DNA from: a virus
Virus record (IMG/VR): IMGVR_UViG_3300035699_000224
Coordinates: 1-28,394 of that record
Strand: one strand, 5' to 3'
Length of the DNA stretch: 28,394 bases
Both the position numbers and the translations under genes were made by a program. Position 1 is the stretch's first letter. Each line of letters opens with the position of its first letter. Below are positions 19,598 through 28,177 of the stretch, piece by piece. The notes under the pieces are model-generated. The model was not told the DNA's origin, did no database searches, and saw nothing but the letters and a program-made list of their open reading frames with translations.

Positions 19598-20851
19598 CTA
19601 AATAGAAACGCCCATCACCTTCACCTTGCGCATGGGGCGCTCAATATCGATGCAGTAGCCGATGCCATCGCAAATATGCTCGACGCCAGCGCGTTTATCC
19701 ACTTCCCGGGTGCCTGGCTTGTAGAGTGTTTCTTCCAGCCCCTTGATCGTCTCCTTGCAGGTTTCATTAACGTAAAACCTAATGCGCCCTGAAGCGGACA
19801 TCAGGCTACGATTGACCGCATTGGTACGATCAGACACCAGCGGGTGCTTGCGTTTGAACTTGAGACGCTTAAAGCCCTTCTCCCTGAAAATATCCAGATC
19901 GGACTCACCCCGGGCCGAGCTGCGGTTGCCACCCGCCGGATCGGGGTAGACGGTGATGTTGGCAATATAGCGCCAATACTTGCGCTCCAGCTCGTCGCAG
20001 GTTTCCTCGGTGGAGCTGTTGCGCAGTACGATTTCATCCACCGCCCAAATATCGCCATTAGGCTGGGGTTGCATAATGGCGCCCGCCATGGGGTCCACGT
20101 TGAAGTCCTGACCCACCCAGATGGGCAGCTTGGGGTTGAACGGGTACTTGCCGACGTGCGAGAAGCGATCAAAGCCGTGATAGACCCGCCCGGACATGTT
20201 TTCGAATGCGCCCTCGAACTCCTGACGAAATGACTTCGGGTCCATGTCCTCGCGCGCGGCTTCAATTTCCTCTTTGGGGATAAACGGACTGGTAATCGTC
20301 GGGAACTGCCAGGACGCCCACTGCTTCTTTTTGGGGTCTTGACCGAGCTTGTAAACATCGTACAGATTGTTGAAACCCTTGCTGGTGCCGATAAACAGCG
20401 CATTGCCGCGGTCTTTTGCCAGCGTGGGTCGAATGACCCGCGCCCAGGTGTCGAACTTTATATCCTGAAACTCATCGAGTACCGCGTAATACAGACCGAC
20501 ACCGCGCAAGCTGTCCGGGTTGTCTGCACCTTTGAGCTCGATGCTGGAGCCGTTAATCAGGCGCACCCACATTTCGGTGTGGTGGACCTTCTTAACCCAG
20601 CGCCTGGGTATGGCTTCCAGCAAGTCGTCCCACATGATCTGTTTTGCCATCTTGTAAGATGGCGCGATATACCAGACTTTGCGACGATTGCCGCCTGCCG
20701 ATTGTTTTATCAGCTCACTCATCGCGAGACGCGTTTTTCCCCACCGACGCCCCGCCACAACGACCTTGAATCGGTGCGGGTCGAGCGAGACCACATCTTG
20801 CTTGGGGTGCAATAGTAAGTCCAAGTTATTTCTCGCTATTGCCGTCTTCAA
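19598..20851 (-). CDS. terL: Terminase large subunit (packaging ATPase/nuclease)
   Basis: This 417-residue protein has the classical two-domain plan. The ATPase domain has Walker A AGRRWGKT (33-40), Walker B YAVLDE (122-127, catalytic E127) and coupling motif FIGTSKG (about 153-159). The RNase H-like nuclease domain has acidic positions D249 (WVGQDFNVDP), D304 (VYPDPAGG) and D395 (EHICDGIGY). It pumps DNA into the procapsid through the portal and cuts genome ends. The frame opens at a TTG (20851) overlapping the small terminase gene by 26 nt; a second TTG at 20824, just after the small-subunit TAA, is an alternative start, and no ATG is close. It follows the small subunit as usual. Confidence 0.95.
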   Translation of the reverse strand: MKTAIARNNLDLLLHPKQDVVSLDPHRFKVVVAGRRWGKTRLAMSELIKQSAGGNRRKVWYIAPSYKMAKQIMWDDLLEAIPRRWVKKVHHTEMWVRLINGSSIELKGADNPDSLRGVGLYYAVLDEFQDIKFDTWARVIRPTLAKDRGNALFIGTSKGFNNLYDVYKLGQDPKKKQWASWQFPTITSPFIPKEEIEAAREDMDPKSFRQEFEGAFENMSGRVYHGFDRFSHVGKYPFNPKLPIWVGQDFNVDPMAGAIMQPQPNGDIWAVDEIVLRNSSTEETCDELERKYWRYIANITVYPDPAGGNRSSARGESDLDIFREKGFKRLKFKRKHPLVSDRTNAVNRSLMSASGRIRFYVNETCKETIKGLEETLYKPGTREVDKRAGVEHICDGIGYCIDIERPMRKVKVMGVSI

Positions 20852-21422
20852 GCTGCTCGCTGGTCACGTCGTCACTGTCAAAGCCGGACGTCATTTCCTC
20901 AATTTCCTGAGACTGCGCGTCGCGCATAATCTGCACGTCTGAATCGGTCATGCGCCGGACAATCAGCTCGGGGATTTCGTCATCCGGTGTTTCTTCGCGA
21001 TCCAGCCGCAGCACGCGCTCGGAAATGCGGTAGTTGGCTTCGAGCGTTTTGGAGGCATCCTGAATGGCGCGAATATCGTCACGAATGGACGCCAGGCGTT
21101 TGCCGTCTTTGGTAGCCTGATTGATTTCATACAGCAAGCGTCGCGACAGCATCTGCGAGCCTTTCAAGTGCAGCTCTTTGACCTGCGAGGCCATTTCAAT
21201 CAACTCGGCGGCTTTTTTATTGGCCTGATTGTCCATCGACTGTTCGATGGCATCATTGAGTTTTTGACGCGATTGGCCCTTTTCGATGCCTTCACGCTTG
21301 AAGCGCCGGTGCAAGGCGGTGGGCGTAATGTCAAATTTCTCCGACAGCTCGTCCAGCGTGTAGTCGCCCGACGCCCACATGGTGGCAGCCTTGGTGTAAT
21401 CGGTCGCTGTCAATCTCGACAT
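20826..21422 (-). CDS. terS: Terminase small subunit (DNA recognition)
   Basis: This 198-residue protein has an N-terminal helix-turn-helix of the kind used to bind the packaging site (residues about 5-50: YTLDELSEKFDITPTALHRR). A helical oligomerisation core follows (about 55-140), then an acidic C-terminal tail (about 150-198) for contact with the large subunit. It is the first gene of the structural operon and directly precedes the large subunit. A promoter (21517-21544), an operator-like palindrome and a stable leader hairpin lie upstream. The recognition site would be expected nearby, in the non-coding region to the right. Confidence 0.88.
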   Translation of the reverse strand: MSRLTATDYTKAATMWASGDYTLDELSEKFDITPTALHRRFKREGIEKGQSRQKLNDAIEQSMDNQANKKAAELIEMASQVKELHLKGSQMLSRRLLYEINQATKDGKRLASIRDDIRAIQDASKTLEANYRISERVLRLDREETPDDEIPELIVRRMTDSDVQIMRDAQSQEIEEMTSGFDSDDVTSEQLEDGNSEK

Positions 21423-21663: not shown

Positions 21664-21891
21664 TCGATGCGTCGCTATTTTGATCGAAAGTTTGAAGCAA
21701 AACACCACCTGAGACTTACTCAGACAGCGATAGAATCAATTTTAAGCGAAAAGTAATACCAACGCTCACCTTAGACTTGAAAACGCTTTGTAGAAGCTCT
21801 GAGAGCGTTACAGCATTTTAAGCGAAACACGTTCATCCCGGAAGCCATTCTGCGACGTATGAACCCTGCACCCCGGTGTCGTCTGGTGTTC

Positions 21892-21912: not shown

Positions 21913-22092
21913 CTGGTGCATCCCGGTGTATTTCTCTCCTGTGATTTCTGAGGACTGCGAAATTAGTTAGCAAAGACAACATTAAGCATTTTTTGCATTC
22001 CTGGTATGTGTATTTTTTCTTGTCTTTATCTTTGTCTTTAGTTTTTATCAGTTGTAGTGATTACTAACTGGGAGTCAAAAAATGTCAATTAA

Positions 22093-22479
22093 TTAGGACA
22101 ACGAGAAACCACCGGAGCCTAATATTTGTCTATGTATTTGATTTTCAAAACAAATGTAAATTCCGGGATGAGAAGTGTTCTCATTGGTATTTAACATAAT
22201 CTGGTATTTTCGAAAATATACCCCAATTTCGCCATCGACTGAGAGCGTGCTTTTTCGAGCGCCTATTTGCACTTTTTGGCGCTTGAATTCGCCTATTTTG
22301 CGCTTCAATCGGCGCTTGAATTCGCCTATCTGAAGATACTCAAAAGCCAATTTTTCAATTTTGGCGCACGCAACCTGTCCAATTTTGCGCATCGAAAGAG
22401 ACCTGCGGTGCCAAAATGTGCCCAAAATCTGATCGACGTTCGCTGTTAGTTTGGTCACATATTGAGCAATTACACGCAT
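22093..22479 (-). CDS. Doubtful ORF of 128 codons
   Basis: The frame is open but evidence for a gene is weak. The predicted protein is rich in Lys/Arg, with an internal near-repeat (IGEFKRRLKRK and IGEFKRQKVQ) that simply reflects a 19-nt direct repeat in the DNA. No family is recognised. The start has only AGG 2 nt before the ATG. The region is visibly more AT-rich than its surroundings. It lies downstream of the terminator of the neighbouring operon and would need its own promoter. It may be non-coding repeat DNA or a recently acquired gene. Confidence 0.25.
   Translation of the reverse strand: MRVIAQYVTKLTANVDQILGTFWHRRSLSMRKIGQVACAKIEKLAFEYLQIGEFKRRLKRKIGEFKRQKVQIGARKSTLSVDGEIGVYFRKYQIMLNTNENTSHPGIYICFENQIHRQILGSGGFSLS
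22278..22329. repeat. 19-bp direct repeat with a 33-bp period
   Basis: GGCGCTTGAATTCGCCTAT occurs exactly at 22278-22296 and 22311-22329. Each copy is itself partly palindromic (GGCG...CGCC around GAATTC). Related fragments flank it (GCGCCTATTTG at 22259, TTGCGCTTCAA at 22299), suggesting an iteron-like cluster. Confidence 0.7.
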
Positions 22480-22558
22480 GACCTATAAGTTTTAAAATAT
22501 GGCCGATGCTATAGCACCTTTTTGGTACTTTGCTGGCACTTGTTCAAATAACAGGCAC

Positions 22559-22584
22559 AAAAAAAGCCGACGCACTGGCCGGCT
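22559..22584 (-). terminator. Rho-independent terminator of the ParB/ABC/GNAT operon
   Basis: On the minus strand AGCCGGC pairs with GCGTCGGCT-side bases in a 7-bp stem (one G-T pair; outer arms AGCCG/CGGCT) with loop CCAGTG, followed by seven Ts (22565-22559). It lies about 50 bp after the stop of the winged-helix-like gene and closes the operon that starts near 26410. Confidence 0.85.
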
Positions 22585-22632
22585 CAATTGCGCGACACCC
22601 CTTGTCAGAATGAGGATTGCAAAAAATGTCAA

Positions 22633-22953
22633 TTACCAGAAAATCTCGACAACCTCATTGTCACTTTCAAACTCACGCGCATCGACCTTCTGGTAAATCA
22701 GGTCAAACGCAGCATGAGAGGGCTTGATGGGCACCACCCAGCGATCACGCCGGTAGACGGGCTCGCACTTGCCCACCATGTTCTTTTTCTCTAAAAAGCG
22801 CAGACTGATGCGCATCGCGTGGCGATTGACTTCATACGGCACCCGTTCGCAGATCATTTCTACGTCGGGCCAACCAATGCGCGTGCCGTTTTTATCAGCA
22901 ATGCCTTCGCAAATCGCCTCAAGAATCTGGCGCTGTTTCAGTGTCAGTCGCAT
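22633..22953 (-). CDS. Small winged-helix-like DNA-binding protein
   Basis: This 106-residue protein begins MRLTLKQRQILEAICEGIADKNG. The first 60 residues read as a winged-helix fold: helix 1 LKQRQILEAIC, a turn helix around DVEMICERV, and a recognition-type helix with NRHAMRISLRFLEKKNMV. A basic wing with YRRDRWVV follows. It is the last gene of the operon, overlapping the GNAT gene by 35 nt, and is followed by the terminator. It could regulate the operon or guide its partners to DNA. No specific family was recognised; the fold is inferred by eye. Confidence 0.55.
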   Translation of the reverse strand: MRLTLKQRQILEAICEGIADKNGTRIGWPDVEMICERVPYEVNRHAMRISLRFLEKKNMVGKCEPVYRRDRWVVPIKPSHAAFDLIYQKVDAREFESDNEVVEIFW

Positions 22954-23851
22954 GGCCCTGCTCCTGTTGGTATTGAGTCAGTTGGTGATGATCCAGCGGG
23001 GCATCCGGCGCCTGCCAGTCAAACGCTCGCAACGGCATCCGGCTGGGCAGCTTGACCCCGACCTCCGGGTTGCTCCATACGCCATAGACCGGGGTGGCGA
23101 AAATCAGCTGTTGCAGCTCACGCACCAGCATTGCCAGGCTTAACCCTTCAACGCGAGACGTGCCTTTATTCATTTTGGCACCGGTCTTTTCTTTCGCGGA
23201 GTTCTTGTAATAGAAGGACTGAATATCCTTGATCACGGCGCTTTGCAGACGCGGCTTCATGGCATTTATTTCCTGCACAATGGCTTCGTGATCGGCAGGG
23301 TGACTGATAAAGCGCGTCTGGAAGAAGTACAGCCCTTTTTCATAGACCCGACTTTGACGCAGCTTGCCGTGTCGAAAGCCGGCTTTCAGGTCAAACGGGT
23401 TGAACTTCGCCATGCTGCTTTGTATCTCGCAGTAGCGAAAGCCGTACATGCGCATCGCCAGGTTAACCATGCGGTAAGACACCCCGGTGCCGCGGTACAA
23501 GGTATCGGTGACAATGCGCGAGGCCCGGGTCATGTTGTTATTCAGCCACTTGGCGCGATGCACATTGGTAAAGTGCGTGTCATTGCCGGGTTTGAGCTTG
23601 GGAAACAGATCATGACGTGGCCCCAGCATCAATGACACCGGGCAGAACACGATCACACCCACCAACCGGCCATCGCCCGTCATGCAGCGGTAATACTGCG
23701 GTCCCGCCGGCAATGCCTCCGCTTTGTAGTGCAGCGCGTGGAGCACTTCCCAGTCAGCGCGTGACCCGCGCTCGACATACATATCATCTACCAGCGTAAA
23801 CGTCCCACGCGCACTCTCAGAGCGCTTTACGGTGATCTCAGGGTTGGGCAT
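22919..23851 (-). CDS. GNAT-fold protein, candidate DNA base-modification enzyme (COG2401/Mom-like)
   Basis: Residues about 30-175 of this 310-residue protein match the GNAT fold: strand pair GRLVGVIVFCPV (61-72), the acyl-CoA loop in SRIVTDTLYRGTGVSYRMV (R120-x-x-G123), a following helix LAMRMYG, and a late strand/helix MAKFNPFDLKAGFRHG (147-162). The 'NPF...AGF' step is, from memory, typical of GNAT domains that are fused to an ABC ATPase in COG2401 proteins. The phage Mu modification enzyme Mom also has a GNAT fold. An HYKA motif near 41 lies where these families carry HY. Residues 185-310 are an extra domain of unknown role. It overlaps its upstream gene by 14 nt and shares an operon with an ABC ATPase. 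Substrate and reaction are unknown. Confidence 0.7.
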   Translation of the reverse strand: MPNPEITVKRSESARGTFTLVDDMYVERGSRADWEVLHALHYKAEALPAGPQYYRCMTGDGRLVGVIVFCPVSLMLGPRHDLFPKLKPGNDTHFTNVHRAKWLNNNMTRASRIVTDTLYRGTGVSYRMVNLAMRMYGFRYCEIQSSMAKFNPFDLKAGFRHGKLRQSRVYEKGLYFFQTRFISHPADHEAIVQEINAMKPRLQSAVIKDIQSFYYKNSAKEKTGAKMNKGTSRVEGLSLAMLVRELQQLIFATPVYGVWSNPEVGVKLPSRMPLRAFDWQAPDAPLDHHQLTQYQQEQGHATDTETAPDS

Positions 23852-24149
23852 GGGCTTGTCTCATTTTATGGTACATGCGACCAATGCCGTTGACGTCGCT
23901 TGGCGTCGTCTGTTGATTGGCGCTATCGAGTTTCAAATAGAAATCTTCGGACGACTCGGGAATCAGAATGATACCGGTCTGCAGGTCCACCTTGTCCACC
24001 GCCTCATCCAGCACGGCTTTGAGGTCATTAATGATTTGCTTGTTGCGGGCAATATCAATGCCGGACTGAGCCGGCTGTTTTTCGTCCCGACTTTGCGCCT
24101 TCACCTTCTTGCGATTTTTAAAATCAACGTGTATCAGAGCGGCTGACAT
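23838..24149 (-). CDS. Small protein of unknown function in the GNAT/ABC operon
   Basis: This 103-residue protein uses the ATG at 24149, which has AAGGA 9 nt upstream; the open frame extends 17 codons further up without support. The N-terminus is basic (HVDFKNRKKVKAQSRDEK), the middle is a helix (RNKQIINDLKAVLDEAVDKV), and the rest is mixed (TGIILIPESSEDFYLKLD). I recognise no family. It lies between the ATPase and GNAT genes and overlaps the GNAT start by 14 nt, so it is likely co-translated and may be an accessory subunit. Confidence 0.6.
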   Translation of the reverse strand: MSAALIHVDFKNRKKVKAQSRDEKQPAQSGIDIARNKQIINDLKAVLDEAVDKVDLQTGIILIPESSEDFYLKLDSANQQTTPSDVNGIGRMYHKMRQAHAQP

Positions 24150-24154
24150 ACTGG

Positions 24155-24247
24155 CTAATCCTTGTAATGGGCAGGCAGCGGCGCACCGCAAAACCCGCAT
24201 TGGCTGTCGCTTTGGCTAAGCGCGGGGTGCGAGTGATTCAGTGACAT
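24155..24247 (-). CDS. Possible 30-residue CxxC miniprotein
   Basis: A short frame overlaps the end of the ATPase gene and runs into the gap before the next gene. It encodes MSLNHSHPALSQSDSQ, then CGFCGAPLPAHYKD. The CxxC plus nearby His residues could bind zinc, as in tiny phage zinc-knuckle proteins. No ribosome binding site is visible, and the frame shares codons with the ATPase end, so it may be chance. It fills an otherwise unexplained 66-nt gap and its stop is 5 nt before the next ATG. Confidence 0.25.
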   Translation of the reverse strand: MSLNHSHPALSQSDSQCGFCGAPLPAHYKD

Positions 24248-24956
24248 TGCGCACAGGCGGCGCTTCAGCATTGACAGCTTCGGGAGCTTGTTTAGCGCTG
24301 ATGCAGGTCGGACACTGCCCCGTTTCCGCGAAGCGGCTAACAGCAACCCGGTCCTGGTAGTGTTTTTCGACAAACAGATTTGGACCCAGCTCGTCAATGA
24401 GGTCTCGATGGGTGGTAGCCACCACGACGATAGCGCCGACCGAGCGAGCCATTTTTTGCAGATTGAACGCGACGACGCGGGCAGTGATGCGGTCGAGGAC
24501 GGCACCAAACTCGTCAGCAACCCAAACCCGAGCGTCAGAGTGGATAAGTTTTGCAATTCTAAATCGGTACAACTGGCCATCTGACAACTCCTTGGGCCGG
24601 CGAATAAACAGGTAGGCGTCGTTAAGACCGGCAGCGGAGAGAATGCGAATGGCGTCATTGGTATCCTTGCCGATCTGATCGATCAGCGGGCAGTCTTCCA
24701 GCGCTACGTCATCGATATTGGCAACTTTGAACTGCTCACTGAGCTTGGCGGAGGCTTCCCGCAGGAGCACCGACTTGCCGGAGCCGGACTGACCGGTGAT
24801 GTACACCATATCGCCCGGGTTAATCTCCAGCTCCAGGTTGTCGTACAGCACAAAATCTTTGGCTTCCAACCCCAGTCCAAAGGCTTCGGCGCATTCCAGC
24901 ACCCGCTCAGAGCGCTTGGTGACGGTCTTGAATGATTTGCTGACGGTAAACTTCAC
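24216..24956 (-). CDS. Soluble ABC-type ATPase, candidate partner of the GNAT protein
   Basis: This 246-residue protein is a single ABC ATPase domain with all key motifs: Walker A GQSGSGKS (55-62), Q-loop near Q94, signature LSDGQ (124-128; variant of LSGGQ), Walker B VWVADEF (144-150, with D148-E149), D-loop AVLDR (152-156) and switch His in TTHRD (H183). There is no membrane segment and no permease gene nearby, so it is not a transporter part. The wording DEFGAVLDR and a short helical subdomain recall COG2401 proteins, in which such an ATPase is fused to a GNAT domain. The C-terminus has a CPTC pair (215-218). It overlaps the upstream ParB-like gene by 4 nt (ATGA). A DNA-remodelling or ATP-gated modification role is inferred. 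Confidence 0.8.
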   Translation of the reverse strand: MKFTVSKSFKTVTKRSERVLECAEAFGLGLEAKDFVLYDNLELEINPGDMVYITGQSGSGKSVLLREASAKLSEQFKVANIDDVALEDCPLIDQIGKDTNDAIRILSAAGLNDAYLFIRRPKELSDGQLYRFRIAKLIHSDARVWVADEFGAVLDRITARVVAFNLQKMARSVGAIVVVATTHRDLIDELGPNLFVEKHYQDRVAVSRFAETGQCPTCISAKQAPEAVNAEAPPVRNVTESLAPRA

Positions 24957-25618
24957 AGGCAGTGATCCTCGACGTATTGCGATAGCGCCGCAGCACCATC
25001 CAGCTCGGTTTCAGATTCCGCAACGACCACCAGTCGGCTTAAAATCAGGCGCTGTTCGTTGCTGACGTTCTTAAAGCCCAGAACCTCATTAATCGGGAAC
25101 GTCTTGCCCTTTGCTGATTTCGCTTTTTTCTCTGTTTCTTCACGCTGTTGCTCCACTTCCTGCTGAATGTCCGCGGTGAGCGAGTCCAGGTTCATATCCC
25201 CGAGTTCTTCGGTGGCAAACGTCAGGTCGCGTTCGTCGAAGAACATCGACATATCGAAGTCACCGCTGAGGTGCAGCCCTTGCAGTTCTTCCGACATAAG
25301 CCCGGTGTCGTATTCCGAGCGTGCGGTTTCATTGTCGGCGAGGCGGTAAGCTCTTACTTGTTCGTCAGTAAGATCGGAGCGCACAACCACCGGTACTTTT
25401 TCCATATTCAGAGACAGCGCCGCAAGACGCCGGCCATGGCCGTTGATAATGGTGCCGTCGATTTCCACTTCGATCGGCGAGGCGTTCCAGCCAAATTCCC
25501 TGATTGAGTTGGCAATCTTTTTCACCTGCTCTTTGGGGTGCTTTTTGGCGTTTTTCTCATACGGCTGCAGGTCTTTTATCAGCCATGCTTCGACTTTCAG
25601 TTTGCTGGGCTCAGTCAT
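24953..25618 (-). CDS. ParB/sulfiredoxin-fold protein (second of the pair)
   Basis: This 221-residue protein uses the ATG at 25618 (GAGAG about 5 nt upstream). The ParB-like N-terminal domain spans residues 8-105: AWLIKDLQPYEKNAKKHP, then VEIDGTIINGHGRRLAAL with the GHGRR box (60-64), then VVVRSDLTDEQVRAYRLADN. Such domains occur in partition proteins, CTPases and nucleases, and are very common beside phage terminase and methylase genes. The C-terminal part (about 130-221) is acidic, then ends in a small conserved-looking unit (TFPINEVLGF...SRLVVVAESE). It overlaps the ATPase gene by 4 nt. Whether it cuts DNA, hydrolyses nucleotide or only binds DNA is not visible. Confidence 0.8.
   Translation of the reverse strand: MTEPSKLKVEAWLIKDLQPYEKNAKKHPKEQVKKIANSIREFGWNASPIEVEIDGTIINGHGRRLAALSLNMEKVPVVVRSDLTDEQVRAYRLADNETARSEYDTGLMSEELQGLHLSGDFDMSMFFDERDLTFATEELGDMNLDSLTADIQQEVEQQREETEKKAKSAKGKTFPINEVLGFKNVSNEQRLILSRLVVVAESETELDGAAALSQYVEDHCL
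25353..25372. repeat. Possible intragenic operator-like palindrome, copy 7
   Basis: CTTACTTG TTCG TCAGTAAG lies inside the second ParB-like gene. It shares 6-bp arms CTTACT/AGTAAG and the same 8-nt spacing with copy 1 at 12043. Since it is in coding sequence it may be chance. Confidence 0.35.
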
Positions 25619-25757
25619 GATCGCTCTCATCGGTTTCAAAGTTGTCGGTGTTGCGCCAGGACAGGTCATCCTCCGGGTTCATGTCGTCACCTTCGGCTTC
25701 CGCCTCTCGAATGATTTCCTCCATGAGTTCGATCAGCTCTGTTTTGCGAGTAGCCAT
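25611..25757 (-). CDS. 48-residue acidic protein between the ParB-like genes
   Basis: A short frame runs from ATG 25757 to TGA 25611-25613, encoding MATRKTELIELMEEIIREAE, then a strongly acidic tail with DDMNPEDDLSWRNTDN. It fills the gap between the ParB-like genes, overlapping the upstream gene by 25 nt and the downstream start by 8 nt, so the three are probably translationally coupled. Composition (many Glu/Asp, an amphipathic helix at 5-22) suggests a small helical partner or DNA mimic, but no family is recognised. It fits codon use and spacing of a genuine gene better than chance. Confidence 0.6.
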   Translation of the reverse strand: MATRKTELIELMEEIIREAEAEGDDMNPEDDLSWRNTDNFETDESDHD

Positions 25758-26410
25758 ACCAGCGCATCCCCGGAATTGGTGAGTGAGTCCGACTCGGTAA
25801 AGCCTTGCGCTTTGCAGGTGGACTGCACGGTTTCCTTGATCGTCTCCACATCATCAATCGCCACTTTGAAGCGCATGATTTCATGGGTCTTGGAAGGCTT
25901 GTCTTTGATACCCAGGTCGATTTCGTCGTTGTCGAATTCGTCGGTATCAAAGTCGTTGTCGAGGTTATCCAGCTCGTTTTCCAATTCGTGATCGAAGTAG
26001 CCGGAAATTTCGGACTCATCAATGGGCAGGATAGCCAGCAGGTCTTCAACGGTGCCGATGCCACCGGCAAGCAGCTCGCCCATCTTTTCGTGGTTGTCTT
26101 CACCGTAGCGCCCGTTATCAAGCAGTGTGATGCGCTTGGCCCGGGCCTCGTCGATGGTGCCCAGATTGGTTGCCGGCACCTTACCGATGCCCAATGCAAT
26201 CGCTTCTTCAACGCGGTGTGCGCCACCAATAATCTCCAGCGTACCGTCTGATAAAGTGCGCACCAGTACCGGCTTGAAAAAGCCCTCTTGCTGAAGACTG
26301 TTGCGGATTTTCTCGCGATTGATAGGGTCCACTTCGTTCGGATTCCAGACGTTGGGCTGCAAATCGCGGGGATCGACTTCAACCTGTGGGTAAATCGTTG
26401 CTTGCGTCAT
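25733..26410 (-). CDS. ParB/sulfiredoxin-fold protein (first of the pair)
   Basis: This 225-residue protein has a ParB-like domain at residues 5-105: VEVDPRDLQPNVWNPNEVD, a helix with IRNSLQQEGFFKPVLVR, and IIGGAHRVEEAIALG with the GGAHR box (62-66). An Asp/Glu-rich linker (about 130-168) leads to a C-terminal unit starting KPSKTHEIMRFKV. The ATG at 26410 (MTQATIY) is chosen because it starts just before the domain; ATGs at 26428 and 26506 are in frame, but the latter lies beyond the operator-like site. None has a good ribosome binding site. It is first in the operon and divergent from the helicase. It differs clearly from the second ParB-like protein, so the pair is not a simple recent duplication. 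Confidence 0.8.
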   Translation of the reverse strand: MTQATIYPQVEVDPRDLQPNVWNPNEVDPINREKIRNSLQQEGFFKPVLVRTLSDGTLEIIGGAHRVEEAIALGIGKVPATNLGTIDEARAKRITLLDNGRYGEDNHEKMGELLAGGIGTVEDLLAILPIDESEISGYFDHELENELDNLDNDFDTDEFDNDEIDLGIKDKPSKTHEIMRFKVAIDDVETIKETVQSTCKAQGFTESDSLTNSGDALVWLLAKQS

Positions 26411-26425
26411 AAATGCTGTACCATA

Positions 26426-26445
26426 CATAGTGTTTAGTAAGTATG
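26426..26445. repeat. Operator-like palindrome, copy 6 (divergent promoter region)
   Basis: CATAGTGT TTAG TAAGTATG: the right arm is perfect, the left arm 5/8. It lies in the 66-bp gap between the divergent ParB-like gene and the helicase. On the plus strand TATGAT (26442-26447) overlaps its edge and could be a -10 hexamer for the helicase gene; the -35 is weak. Confidence 0.6.
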
Positions 26446-26476
26446 ATCTACCAAAATTATGAAGACAAGGCAAATC

Positions 26477-28177
26477 ATGTCCATACCAGTCATCAAAATC
26501 GTTCACAATCCGGTCACTGCGAAAGTTATTGAGCCGTCTCGCGACGTGCGCTTGCTGATCAGTGAGCTGTTATCGTACAAAGTGCCCGGCTCTGAGCACA
26601 TGCCCACGATGAACTGGGATGGCGTTACCAGCCTGTACCAGATGAAGACCAACACCTTCCCCGCCGGCTTTGTGCGCTTTGTGCGCCGCAAGCTGACCCG
26701 GGCGGGCTACAAGGTGCGGGTTCATTGCAAGCCGGCTCCTGAGCCACTGGGACCGACTCATCCTAAAGTCGATGACTTCCCGGAAGACCCACGCTATGAC
26801 TACCAGCCGGAAGTGGTCGAGCGCCTGCTGTCGCTGAAGGGCTTGATAGCGATGATCAGTACCGGCGGCGGCAAATCAAAGTGCTTTAAGCTCGCTGCCG
26901 AGCGCATTGGTCGCCCTACCCTGTTCGTCACCACCCGCAAATCACTCATGTATCAGATGGCTGAAGACTACGGGGAAACGATCGGCAAGCCCTTTGGCAT
27001 CATGGGGGATGGCATCTGGGAGCCCAAACCCGATGGCGTGAACTTCGCGATTGTGGATACGCTGGTTGCTCGCCTGGAAAAACTCAGCTTTCGCACCGAA
27101 GTGGAAAAGGAGGTCGAGCGTTGGCAGGATAAAATCGACACCAAGGTGCAGGAATTAGCGAAATCCAAAGGCTTGCCCGCTGCCGAAAATATGATGCGCT
27201 CCATGCCACCGGAGTTGCGCAAGAAGCTTTCACAGATTCGCCAGCTTGTGGAAAGCAAAAATCCACTGGATGAAAAAGCGGTGGAGTCCCGGGTCAATGC
27301 GAAAATCAAGCATCATGAGGTCATGCGCAAGCAGGCGCTCGATCTGCTCAGCAAGATTGAATTTCTCACCCTTGAGGAAGCGCACGAAGTCGGCTCCGAC
27401 AGCTTCTTTTTGATTTCGCAAGCGTGTGTGAGTGCGCACTACCGGTTGGCGCTCACCGCGACACCCTTCATGCGGGATGATCAGGGCGCCAACATGCGTT
27501 TGATGGCGGCAACCGGTCCCATCGGCATCAAGGTGAGCGAAAAGCTGCTCATTGATCGCGGTATTCTGGCTAAGCCCTATTTCAAGTTCATCAAAAGCAA
27601 GGCGCCTGCCGGTGTCGCTCGCGGCACCAAGTACCAGACCGCCTACAGCAAGTGTATCGTCGAAAACACCTGGCGCAATCACCAGATCGTCAGCGAAGTA
27701 GAGCACTTTAAACGGCATGATTTAACCTCGATGGTGCTGGTGCAGCAGACCAAACATGGCAAGAATCTCGAAAAGATGATGCGCAATGTCGGACTCAAGG
27801 CGCGCTTTATCTCCGGTGAATCCAATCAGGACAAACGCTCAGAGGCGCTGGAGCAGCTTAAAACCGGCGCACTGGACGTACTGATTGGCTCGACGATACT
27901 CGATGTAGGCGTGGACGTACCCAGTGTGGGTGCGGTGATACTGGCAGGCGGTGGCAAAGCGGAGGTCTCCACACGTCAGCGCATCGGTCGCGGCTTGCGC
28001 GCGAAAAAGAAAGGCCCGAATATCTGCTTCATCATTGATTTCGAGGATCAGGGTAATAATCATCTGGTGCGCCACTACAAAGAGCGGCGTCGAATCATCG
28101 AGGAAACACCGGGTTTCGTTGAGGGTATCGTCAAGCACTTCGACTTTGAAAAGCTGGGCTTTGGGGAAGCGGCATAA
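26477..28177 (+). CDS. SF2 DEAD/DEAH-type helicase (UvsW/RadD-like) with an internal insertion
   Basis: The frame opens at 26459, but the ATG at 26477 (MSIPVIKIV) is preferred since AAGG lies 6 nt upstream; this gives 566 residues. Numbered from the longer start, motif I is STGGGKS (134-140), motif II EEAH (306-309), motif III TATPF (333-337), motif V STILDVGVDVP (478-488) and motif VI QRIGRGLR (507-514). An N-terminal region (about 45-90) with WDGVTSLY and FPAGFVRFV recalls the small T4 UvsW N-terminal domain. Such helicases remodel forks and recombination intermediates. Oddities are EEAH instead of DEAH/DECH and a charged helical insert of about 90 residues (208-298) between motifs Ib and II. 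It is the only large plus-strand gene here, divergent from the ParB operon. Confidence 0.88.
   Translation: MSIPVIKIVHNPVTAKVIEPSRDVRLLISELLSYKVPGSEHMPTMNWDGVTSLYQMKTNTFPAGFVRFVRRKLTRAGYKVRVHCKPAPEPLGPTHPKVDDFPEDPRYDYQPEVVERLLSLKGLIAMISTGGGKSKCFKLAAERIGRPTLFVTTRKSLMYQMAEDYGETIGKPFGIMGDGIWEPKPDGVNFAIVDTLVARLEKLSFRTEVEKEVERWQDKIDTKVQELAKSKGLPAAENMMRSMPPELRKKLSQIRQLVESKNPLDEKAVESRVNAKIKHHEVMRKQALDLLSKIEFLTLEEAHEVGSDSFFLISQACVSAHYRLALTATPFMRDDQGANMRLMAATGPIGIKVSEKLLIDRGILAKPYFKFIKSKAPAGVARGTKYQTAYSKCIVENTWRNHQIVSEVEHFKRHDLTSMVLVQQTKHGKNLEKMMRNVGLKARFISGESNQDKRSEALEQLKTGALDVLIGSTILDVGVDVPSVGAVILAGGGKAEVSTRQRIGRGLRAKKKGPNICFIIDFEDQGNNHLVRHYKERRRIIEETPGFVEGIVKHFDFEKLGFGEAA

Follow-up and report, generated by a model that had tools for sequence, protein, structure and literature searches.

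A conserved phage operon beside the terminase genes pairs an ABC ATPase and a GNAT-fold protein with two ParB-like proteins: a candidate system for acyl modification of DNA

The DNA analysed here, hereafter the window, is a 28.4-kb viral fragment from IMG/VR (record IMGVR_UViG_3300035699_000224; 28,394 nt), with genes for tail, head, portal and terminase on the minus strand of its left part. At 22633–26410(–) it holds seven open reading frames (ORFs) arranged head to tail, most of them overlapping by 4-35 nt and one pair separated by a 66-nt gap, among which a ParB + ABC + GNAT module lies contiguous on one strand: two ParB-like proteins (ParB1 and ParB2), a soluble ABC ATPase and a GNAT-fold protein. 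Based on profile comparison, structure prediction and gene neighbourhood, this operon is probably a split variant of a family of ABC–GNAT fusion proteins, and probably works as that family does. The module is kept in every related locus that could be read with sufficient flanks, always together with the terminase genes, and we advance, as a tentative proposal, that it serves to acylate phage DNA in an ATP-dependent reaction, late in the infection cycle and before or during packaging by terminase.

The evidence for the pairing starts from the ABC ATPase (24216-24956, –; Pfam ABC_tran, 5.6e-12), whose GTG start is coupled to the ParB2 stop by a 4-nt overlap. Relatives show no or almost no variation in its Walker A (GQSGSGKS), signature (LSDGQ), Walker B/D-loop (VWVADEFGAVLDR) and H-loop (ATTH). 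A membrane partner of the kind required for transport is annotated in none of the related phage loci examined, and on that ground the interpretation as an ABC transporter was rejected; a soluble ATPase with intact motifs and no transporter partner, as the reading made from the sequence alone (the sequence-only reading) had described it, is borne out by the relatives' alignment and by the locus annotations. A tblastn search with the ABC protein led to phage proteins that fuse the same ABC domain to a GNAT recognised by Pfam (P12024S, 3.4e-09; Jace, 1e-08). In profile alignments with hhalign, the ABC profile matched the ABC half of the fused proteins with a probability of 99.8% (E 6.7e-28), and the GNAT profile matched the GNAT half with 96.5% (E 7.5e-10), or 95.0% (E 3.7e-08) when 50 fused sequences were used. 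Some relatives of the window's GNAT protein are themselves annotated, in MK0520-type wording, as 'ABC-type ATPase fused to a predicted acyl/acetyltransferase domain'. The COG2401-type link between ABC and GNAT, set beforehand as a test, is thus supported by profile matches to both fused halves. The ABC domain of the window has the intact Walker A/B, signature and H-loop of the fused subfamily, and the lineage to which the window belongs encodes ABC and GNAT in two distinct ORFs, in the window and in the related loci alike. That the two proteins match both fused halves, in the same order, gives good grounds for supposing that they act as one complex.

The GNAT-fold acyltransferase-like protein (22919-23851, –) matches phrog_886 (1.2e-112). 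Searches of Pfam, NCBIfam and PDB sequences with this protein returned nothing useful, and structure prediction was therefore needed. The AlphaFold (AF2) model, built from 47 sequences, has a predicted local distance difference test score (pLDDT) of 86.4 and a predicted TM-score (pTM) of 0.78, and shows an additional C-terminal part of ~130 aa that is mostly helical. Foldseek retrieved GNATs for this model from both BFVD and PDB: rank 3 in BFVD is the fused ABC-GNAT of Leptospira LE4, and the top PDB match is NAT10 (E 2.4e-5), followed by many acetyltransferases; the model of the fused ABC-GNAT also retrieves TmcA (rank 23, 410 columns). The TM-scores of the Foldseek GNAT matches are ~0.3-0.6, with low values of about 0.3 for NAT10 and TmcA, and therefore support the fold and no specific function. 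The predicted model, the Foldseek matches and the profile match to the fused GNAT together uphold the earlier assignment of a GNAT fold with an extra C-terminal domain. Conserved residues are found in H41-Y42-K43, in the loop R120-G121-x-G123 and at E142/S145-S146-M147/N151; the loop, RGxGx[SGA] at 120-125, looks like a canonical acyl-CoA loop and so suggests an acyl-CoA donor.

Both ParB-like proteins have, in alignment, an N-terminal ParB/Srx domain with a GxHRxxA-like motif, and a helix-turn-helix (HTH) DNA-binding domain was recognised in neither of them by Pfam or alignment. ParB1 (25733-26410, –; ATG start, with an in-frame ATG at 26428 as a possible alternative) matches Pfam ParB_N (7.7e-07) and phrog_723 (6.6e-53). 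ParB2 (24953-25618, –) matches phrog_930 (6.8e-70), and its Pfam ParB_N match of 6e-05 is below the curated cut-off; phage DNA methyltransferases have a ParB module to which it is likewise similar, as seen in PHROG (phrog_498 DNA methyltransferase, 1.5e-37) and PADLOC (MTase_II, 3.4e-23). The matches of PADLOC on the window are confined to the ATPase and ParB levels, and the GNAT protein has none. ParB-like proteins are described from a DNA modification pathway as well, DpdB of 7-deazaguanine DNA modification being one (PMC12839542). A further case of ParB in the company of a DNA-modifying enzyme is Microbacterium phage MenE, where a ParB-like gene adjoins one of the Mom family; these associations speak for DNA modification as the role of the operon.

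The operon's genes are inherited together, and with the terminase. An IMG/VR search with the GNAT alignment gave 272 relatives, 80 of which were kept, their loci being scanned with a profile of each window gene; 56 of these loci, chosen by GNAT, had full flanks (at least 5 kb upstream and at least 3.5 kb downstream). All 56 contain the helicase that neighbours the operon, ParB1, ParB2, ABC, GNAT, the small protein phrog_900, the terminase small subunit (TerS) and the terminase large subunit (TerL), in a near-constant order: helicase(-), then ParB1, ParB2, ABC, GNAT, phrog_900, TerS and TerL. Synteny kept in 56/56 loci excludes chance, and the conserved co-occurrence that had been set as a test of the sequence-only reading is present throughout. 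A search of annotated phages by TerL provided an unbiased check on loci that had been chosen by GNAT: the 30 records with 54-62% TerL identity are exactly the 30 GNAT records, and no relative of the GNAT occurs in the TerL lineages that come next, at 42% identity or less. Among plasmids the counts are nearly equal (905 GNAT, 896 ABC, 928 ParB1, 891 TerL), the ~900 carriers being phage-plasmids of the SSU5/AB type. Among the carriers are SSU5, Cyrano and AB-type phage-plasmids, Pseudomonas Nickievirus, Rhizobium RHEph10-like phages and Stenotrophomonas ANB28-like phages.

The same two associations, with ParB and with terminase, recur around the fused proteins. These are common, with 432 relatives among pattern hits in genome contigs and at least 596 in viral contigs. 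A ParB-like gene stands immediately upstream of the fused gene in LE3, Jace, Sisko and EastWest, and the ParBs of the latter three match phrog_723, the PHROG of ParB1, strongly. On the same strand and at most 1 kb upstream, a ParB was found in 60/72 genome loci and 47/62 viral loci; by the looser test of a ParB within 1.5 kb, in 69/80 genome loci. ParB accompaniment of ABC and GNAT, which the sequence-only reading had described for this operon, is therefore strongly conserved, in 56/56 split loci and in most fused ones. Terminase linkage is absent from that reading. Of the viral fused loci, 50 extend 5 kb or more beyond the fused gene, and in 45 of these an ORF of 330 aa or longer on the same strand begins within the next 3.5 kb. 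Pfam assigned these 45 ORFs to Terminase_6N (24), Terminase_3 (13, overlapping), TerL_ATPase (10) and GpA_ATPase (4), PHROGs agree, and clustering placed 36 of them in two groups, so that about 36-38 of the 45 are TerL of several families. By our estimate, fewer than about 10% of random genes would have TerL as their next large same-strand neighbour. Terminases and portals are also among the neighbours of fused loci in genome contigs, many of which are therefore probably prophages. The stretch read around the fused gene contains no terminase in P12024S, vB_VmeM-32, PX29 and pT24; in view of these four exceptions, the linkage is common and not universal.

Two side observations concern the fused loci. 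In Tenacibaculum phage pT24 (L093:4842-6014) an in-frame stop codon breaks the ABC-GNAT frame, for which the record lists two genes. Among the genome-contig loci (L134-L213), many of them from Planctomycetes, trypsin-like peptidase genes often lie upstream (10/60 neighbours); these could be prophage proteases or host genes.

The mechanism we propose for the operon would have the ABC ATPase and the GNAT protein, a single chain in most relatives, act jointly as an ATP-dependent acyltransferase, brought to DNA by the ParB-like proteins. An acyl group would be transferred from a donor of the acyl-CoA type to a base, or another group, of phage DNA, and this would happen at a late stage of infection, immediately ahead of packaging by terminase or in the course of it. 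The single complex, the DNA substrate, the acyl-CoA donor and the timing are what we infer; terminase linkage together with strict co-inheritance suggests action at packaging and importance to the phage. Several considerations weigh against the proposal. GNATs most often modify proteins and small molecules, and an ABC fold alone does not specify DNA binding. Sequence homology to Mom, the proven DNA-modifying GNAT, is not significant (phrog_1384 profile). The literature search found no restriction or nucleoside data on carriers of the module; the DNA of Stenotrophomonas DLP3 resists 15 enzymes, but DLP3 is not among the GNAT matches. Lastly, the module is strictly retained alongside its TerL, which is not the behaviour of a dispensable anti-restriction gene, and a role in packaging or maturation that involves no base modification would fit this pattern too.

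This last point leads to the alternative that survives best, which we nonetheless consider somewhat unlikely: ABC, GNAT and ParB could be packaging or maturation accessories acting on terminase, TerS or the packaging site, the GNAT acylating a protein or having a structural or binding part, with no base modified. The fixed place beside TerS/TerL in 56/56 loci, the position of the fused form in viral contigs, where TerL of several families follows closely downstream, and an occurrence that is inseparable from TerL in the 30 phage records and equally frequent in the ~900 plasmids all agree with it. However, the fused form occurs in pT24, P12024S, vB_VmeM-32 and PX29 with no terminase in the stretch read, most tailed phages package their DNA without the module, and ParB domains and GNATs elsewhere accompany DNA-modifying enzymes (PMC12839542). 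A scenario that combines DNA acylation with packaging, and which we hold to be unlikely, is packaging-coupled marking of DNA, whereby an ABC–GNAT complex loaded by ParB-like nucleoside triphosphatases would install an acyl mark obligatory for terminase, in a manner common to phages with unrelated terminases.

The module might instead be directed at the host or at competing phages, with the GNAT acetylating host proteins (RNA polymerase, translation factors) or with the whole functioning in anti-phage defence or superinfection exclusion by a phage-plasmid. GNATs are known as protein acetylators, PADLOC gives weak ATPase-level matches to mads_3/mads_8, and an SSU5-like plasmid lowered phage infection and DNA uptake in Klebsiella, from which its authors inferred a restriction–modification system (PMC8969562). 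Terminase linkage and ParB partners point to DNA, though; the GNAT lacks the PADLOC match that its partner shows, and defence genes are usually patchy as against a module that is core. We regard this explanation as improbable.

Quite improbable, in our judgement, is a Mom-like enzyme that makes a carbamoylmethyl-type adenine, the ABC and ParB proteins being accessory. Apart from the GNAT fold, it draws on an N-terminal HY dyad that is invariant at the corresponding position in the split proteins (HYK, 47/47), the fused proteins (HYL/HYM, 50/50) and Mom (HYS, 7/7), a region which hhalign aligns, weakly, between Mom and ABC-GNAT proteins. A common HY dyad is a two-residue resemblance and not proof of homology. 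Homology to Mu Mom was rejected, as the hhalign probability is 12-15% with a broad Mom profile and 1% with a narrow one, and the relation to Mu Mom drawn in the sequence-only reading is not supported. Mom, moreover, lacks the R-G-x-G loop conserved in the module, and the tRNA linkage expected as a sign of an aminoacyl-tRNA donor is absent, except that some Nickievirus-like loci have clusters of tRNA genes on the upstream side of the helicase. As a separate observation, Microbacterium phage MenE (L217:1969-3228) has a ParB-like gene, a Mom-family GNAT gene and a tRNA-Gly(CCC) gene contiguous, which suggests that Mom, too, has ParB as a companion and prompts the thought that its donor could be a glycyl-tRNA.

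A ParABS-like partition system of phage-plasmids, suggested by two ParB_N-type proteins and by the many phage-plasmids among the relatives, is highly improbable given that the operon's ORFs include no ParA gene, that the ParBs have no recognised HTH domain, that the module occurs in Nickievirus phages, one without observed temperate behaviour (PMC8537276), that the fused form occurs in lytic Leptospira LE3, and that the module sits with terminase genes.

The remaining genes of the operon are conserved to very different degrees. A 48-aa acidic protein (25611-25757, –), whose ORF overlaps both ParB genes, is lineage-specific, with a relative in 8/56 full-flank loci. The small protein between ABC and GNAT (23838-24149, –; 103 aa from ATG, 120 aa from an upstream start) is poorly conserved, with a relative in 1/56 loci and no match in family searches (Pfam, PHROG and others). 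Their rarity places both outside the conserved module. The last gene (22633-22953, –), present in 56/56 loci, encodes a conserved small protein whose sole match is phrog_900 (5.6e-07), of unknown function, and the winged-helix label given to it earlier was not confirmed. An intrinsic-terminator-like hairpin with a U-tract (22564-22585, –; region z = -2.8) lies 3' of the operon, which therefore has all seven ORFs on one strand and the terminator of its own that the first description gave it. A promoter scan performed at chance level (6 found, 4.8 expected) and was not used as evidence; an Rfam scan of the window gave no match.

Divergent from the operon is the gene of a DEAD/DEAH helicase of the UvsW type (26459-28177, +; Helicase_C 3.8e-13, phrog_16 2.5e-85), conserved in 56/56 loci. 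On the other side are a TerS-like DNA-binding protein (20826-21422, –; phrog_867, 2.4e-41), a relative of which is annotated TerS in phage Cyrano, and TerL (19598-20851, –), 54-62% identical to the TerL of the 30 phage records. The TerL ORF of a close relative (L010:8678-12532) has 1284 aa, about 870 aa more than that of the window, and the extra length is possibly an intein. Between the phrog_900 gene and TerS, at 21980-22640, GC content falls to about 45% and repeats are found: TTGACATTTTTTGCA[AT]TCCT-like repeats near 22613-22636 and 22076-22091 and, inverted, at 21987-22006, as well as a perfect 19-nt direct repeat at 22278/22311; ATTTTAAGCGAAA occurs at 21739/21815. The linear records of SSU5 and Cyrano terminate in the gap that corresponds to this spacer. 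The repeats near 21980-22640 are possibly late promoter or operator repeats, or a packaging site. A 128-aa minus-strand ORF at 22093-22479 has no family, is absent from all other scanned loci and is probably not a conserved gene.

At its core, the DNA acylation proposed here is not a new idea, since Iyer et al. 2013, as cited in PMC7824862, had predicted that a protein of the GNAT superfamily and an ABC ATPase together make up a system that acylates DNA bases; to call the system new, as was done from the sequence alone, was an overstatement. Our additions are that a large lineage of phage-plasmids carries the module in split form, that ParB is its consistent partner and that it is linked to terminase, some of which Iyer et al. 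2013 may already mention. If true, the proposal would reveal a core step of DNA modification or marking for a whole group of tailed phages, including ~900 sequenced phage-plasmids, that has been hidden under the names 'ABC transporter' and 'ParB', and it would make the 2013 prediction directly testable in laboratory phages. It would also mean that an ABC ATPase can drive a nucleobase acyltransferase, and could account for the recurrence of ParB-like domains beside DNA-modifying enzymes and terminases.

Among known systems, the SSU5/AB-type phage-plasmid core (SSU5, Cyrano, pHCM2-type) and the Nickievirus/RHEph10 phages have the same gene order as the window, which nevertheless represents a distinct lineage, its GNAT protein being at most 59% identical to those of sequenced isolates; in those phages the module genes are annotated merely as 'ABC transporter', 'ParB-like' or hypothetical. 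Mu Mom has a GNAT fold and an N-terminal HY dyad like the window's GNAT, but works without an ABC partner and has a different loop in place of R-G-x-G. TmcA and NAT10, the latter being the best PDB match of the window GNAT, acetylate RNA cytidine by means of a GNAT and an ATPase and offer a parallel for such a pair acting on a nucleobase; their ATPase is of the RecA/helicase type, within one protein and with an RNA substrate, whereas the window has no such fusion and its ATPase is of the ABC type, encoded by a separate gene. The fused ABC–GNAT proteins (MK0520/COG2401-type annotation; phrog_11143) resemble the window in both domains, ABC and GNAT, and in the order of the two, and mostly have ParB directly upstream. 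Compared to them, the window has ABC and GNAT as separate genes, two ParBs and an extra C-terminal helical part on the GNAT; not being a single polypeptide, its ABC–GNAT pair is therefore placed as a split variant beside the fused family rather than as a member of it.

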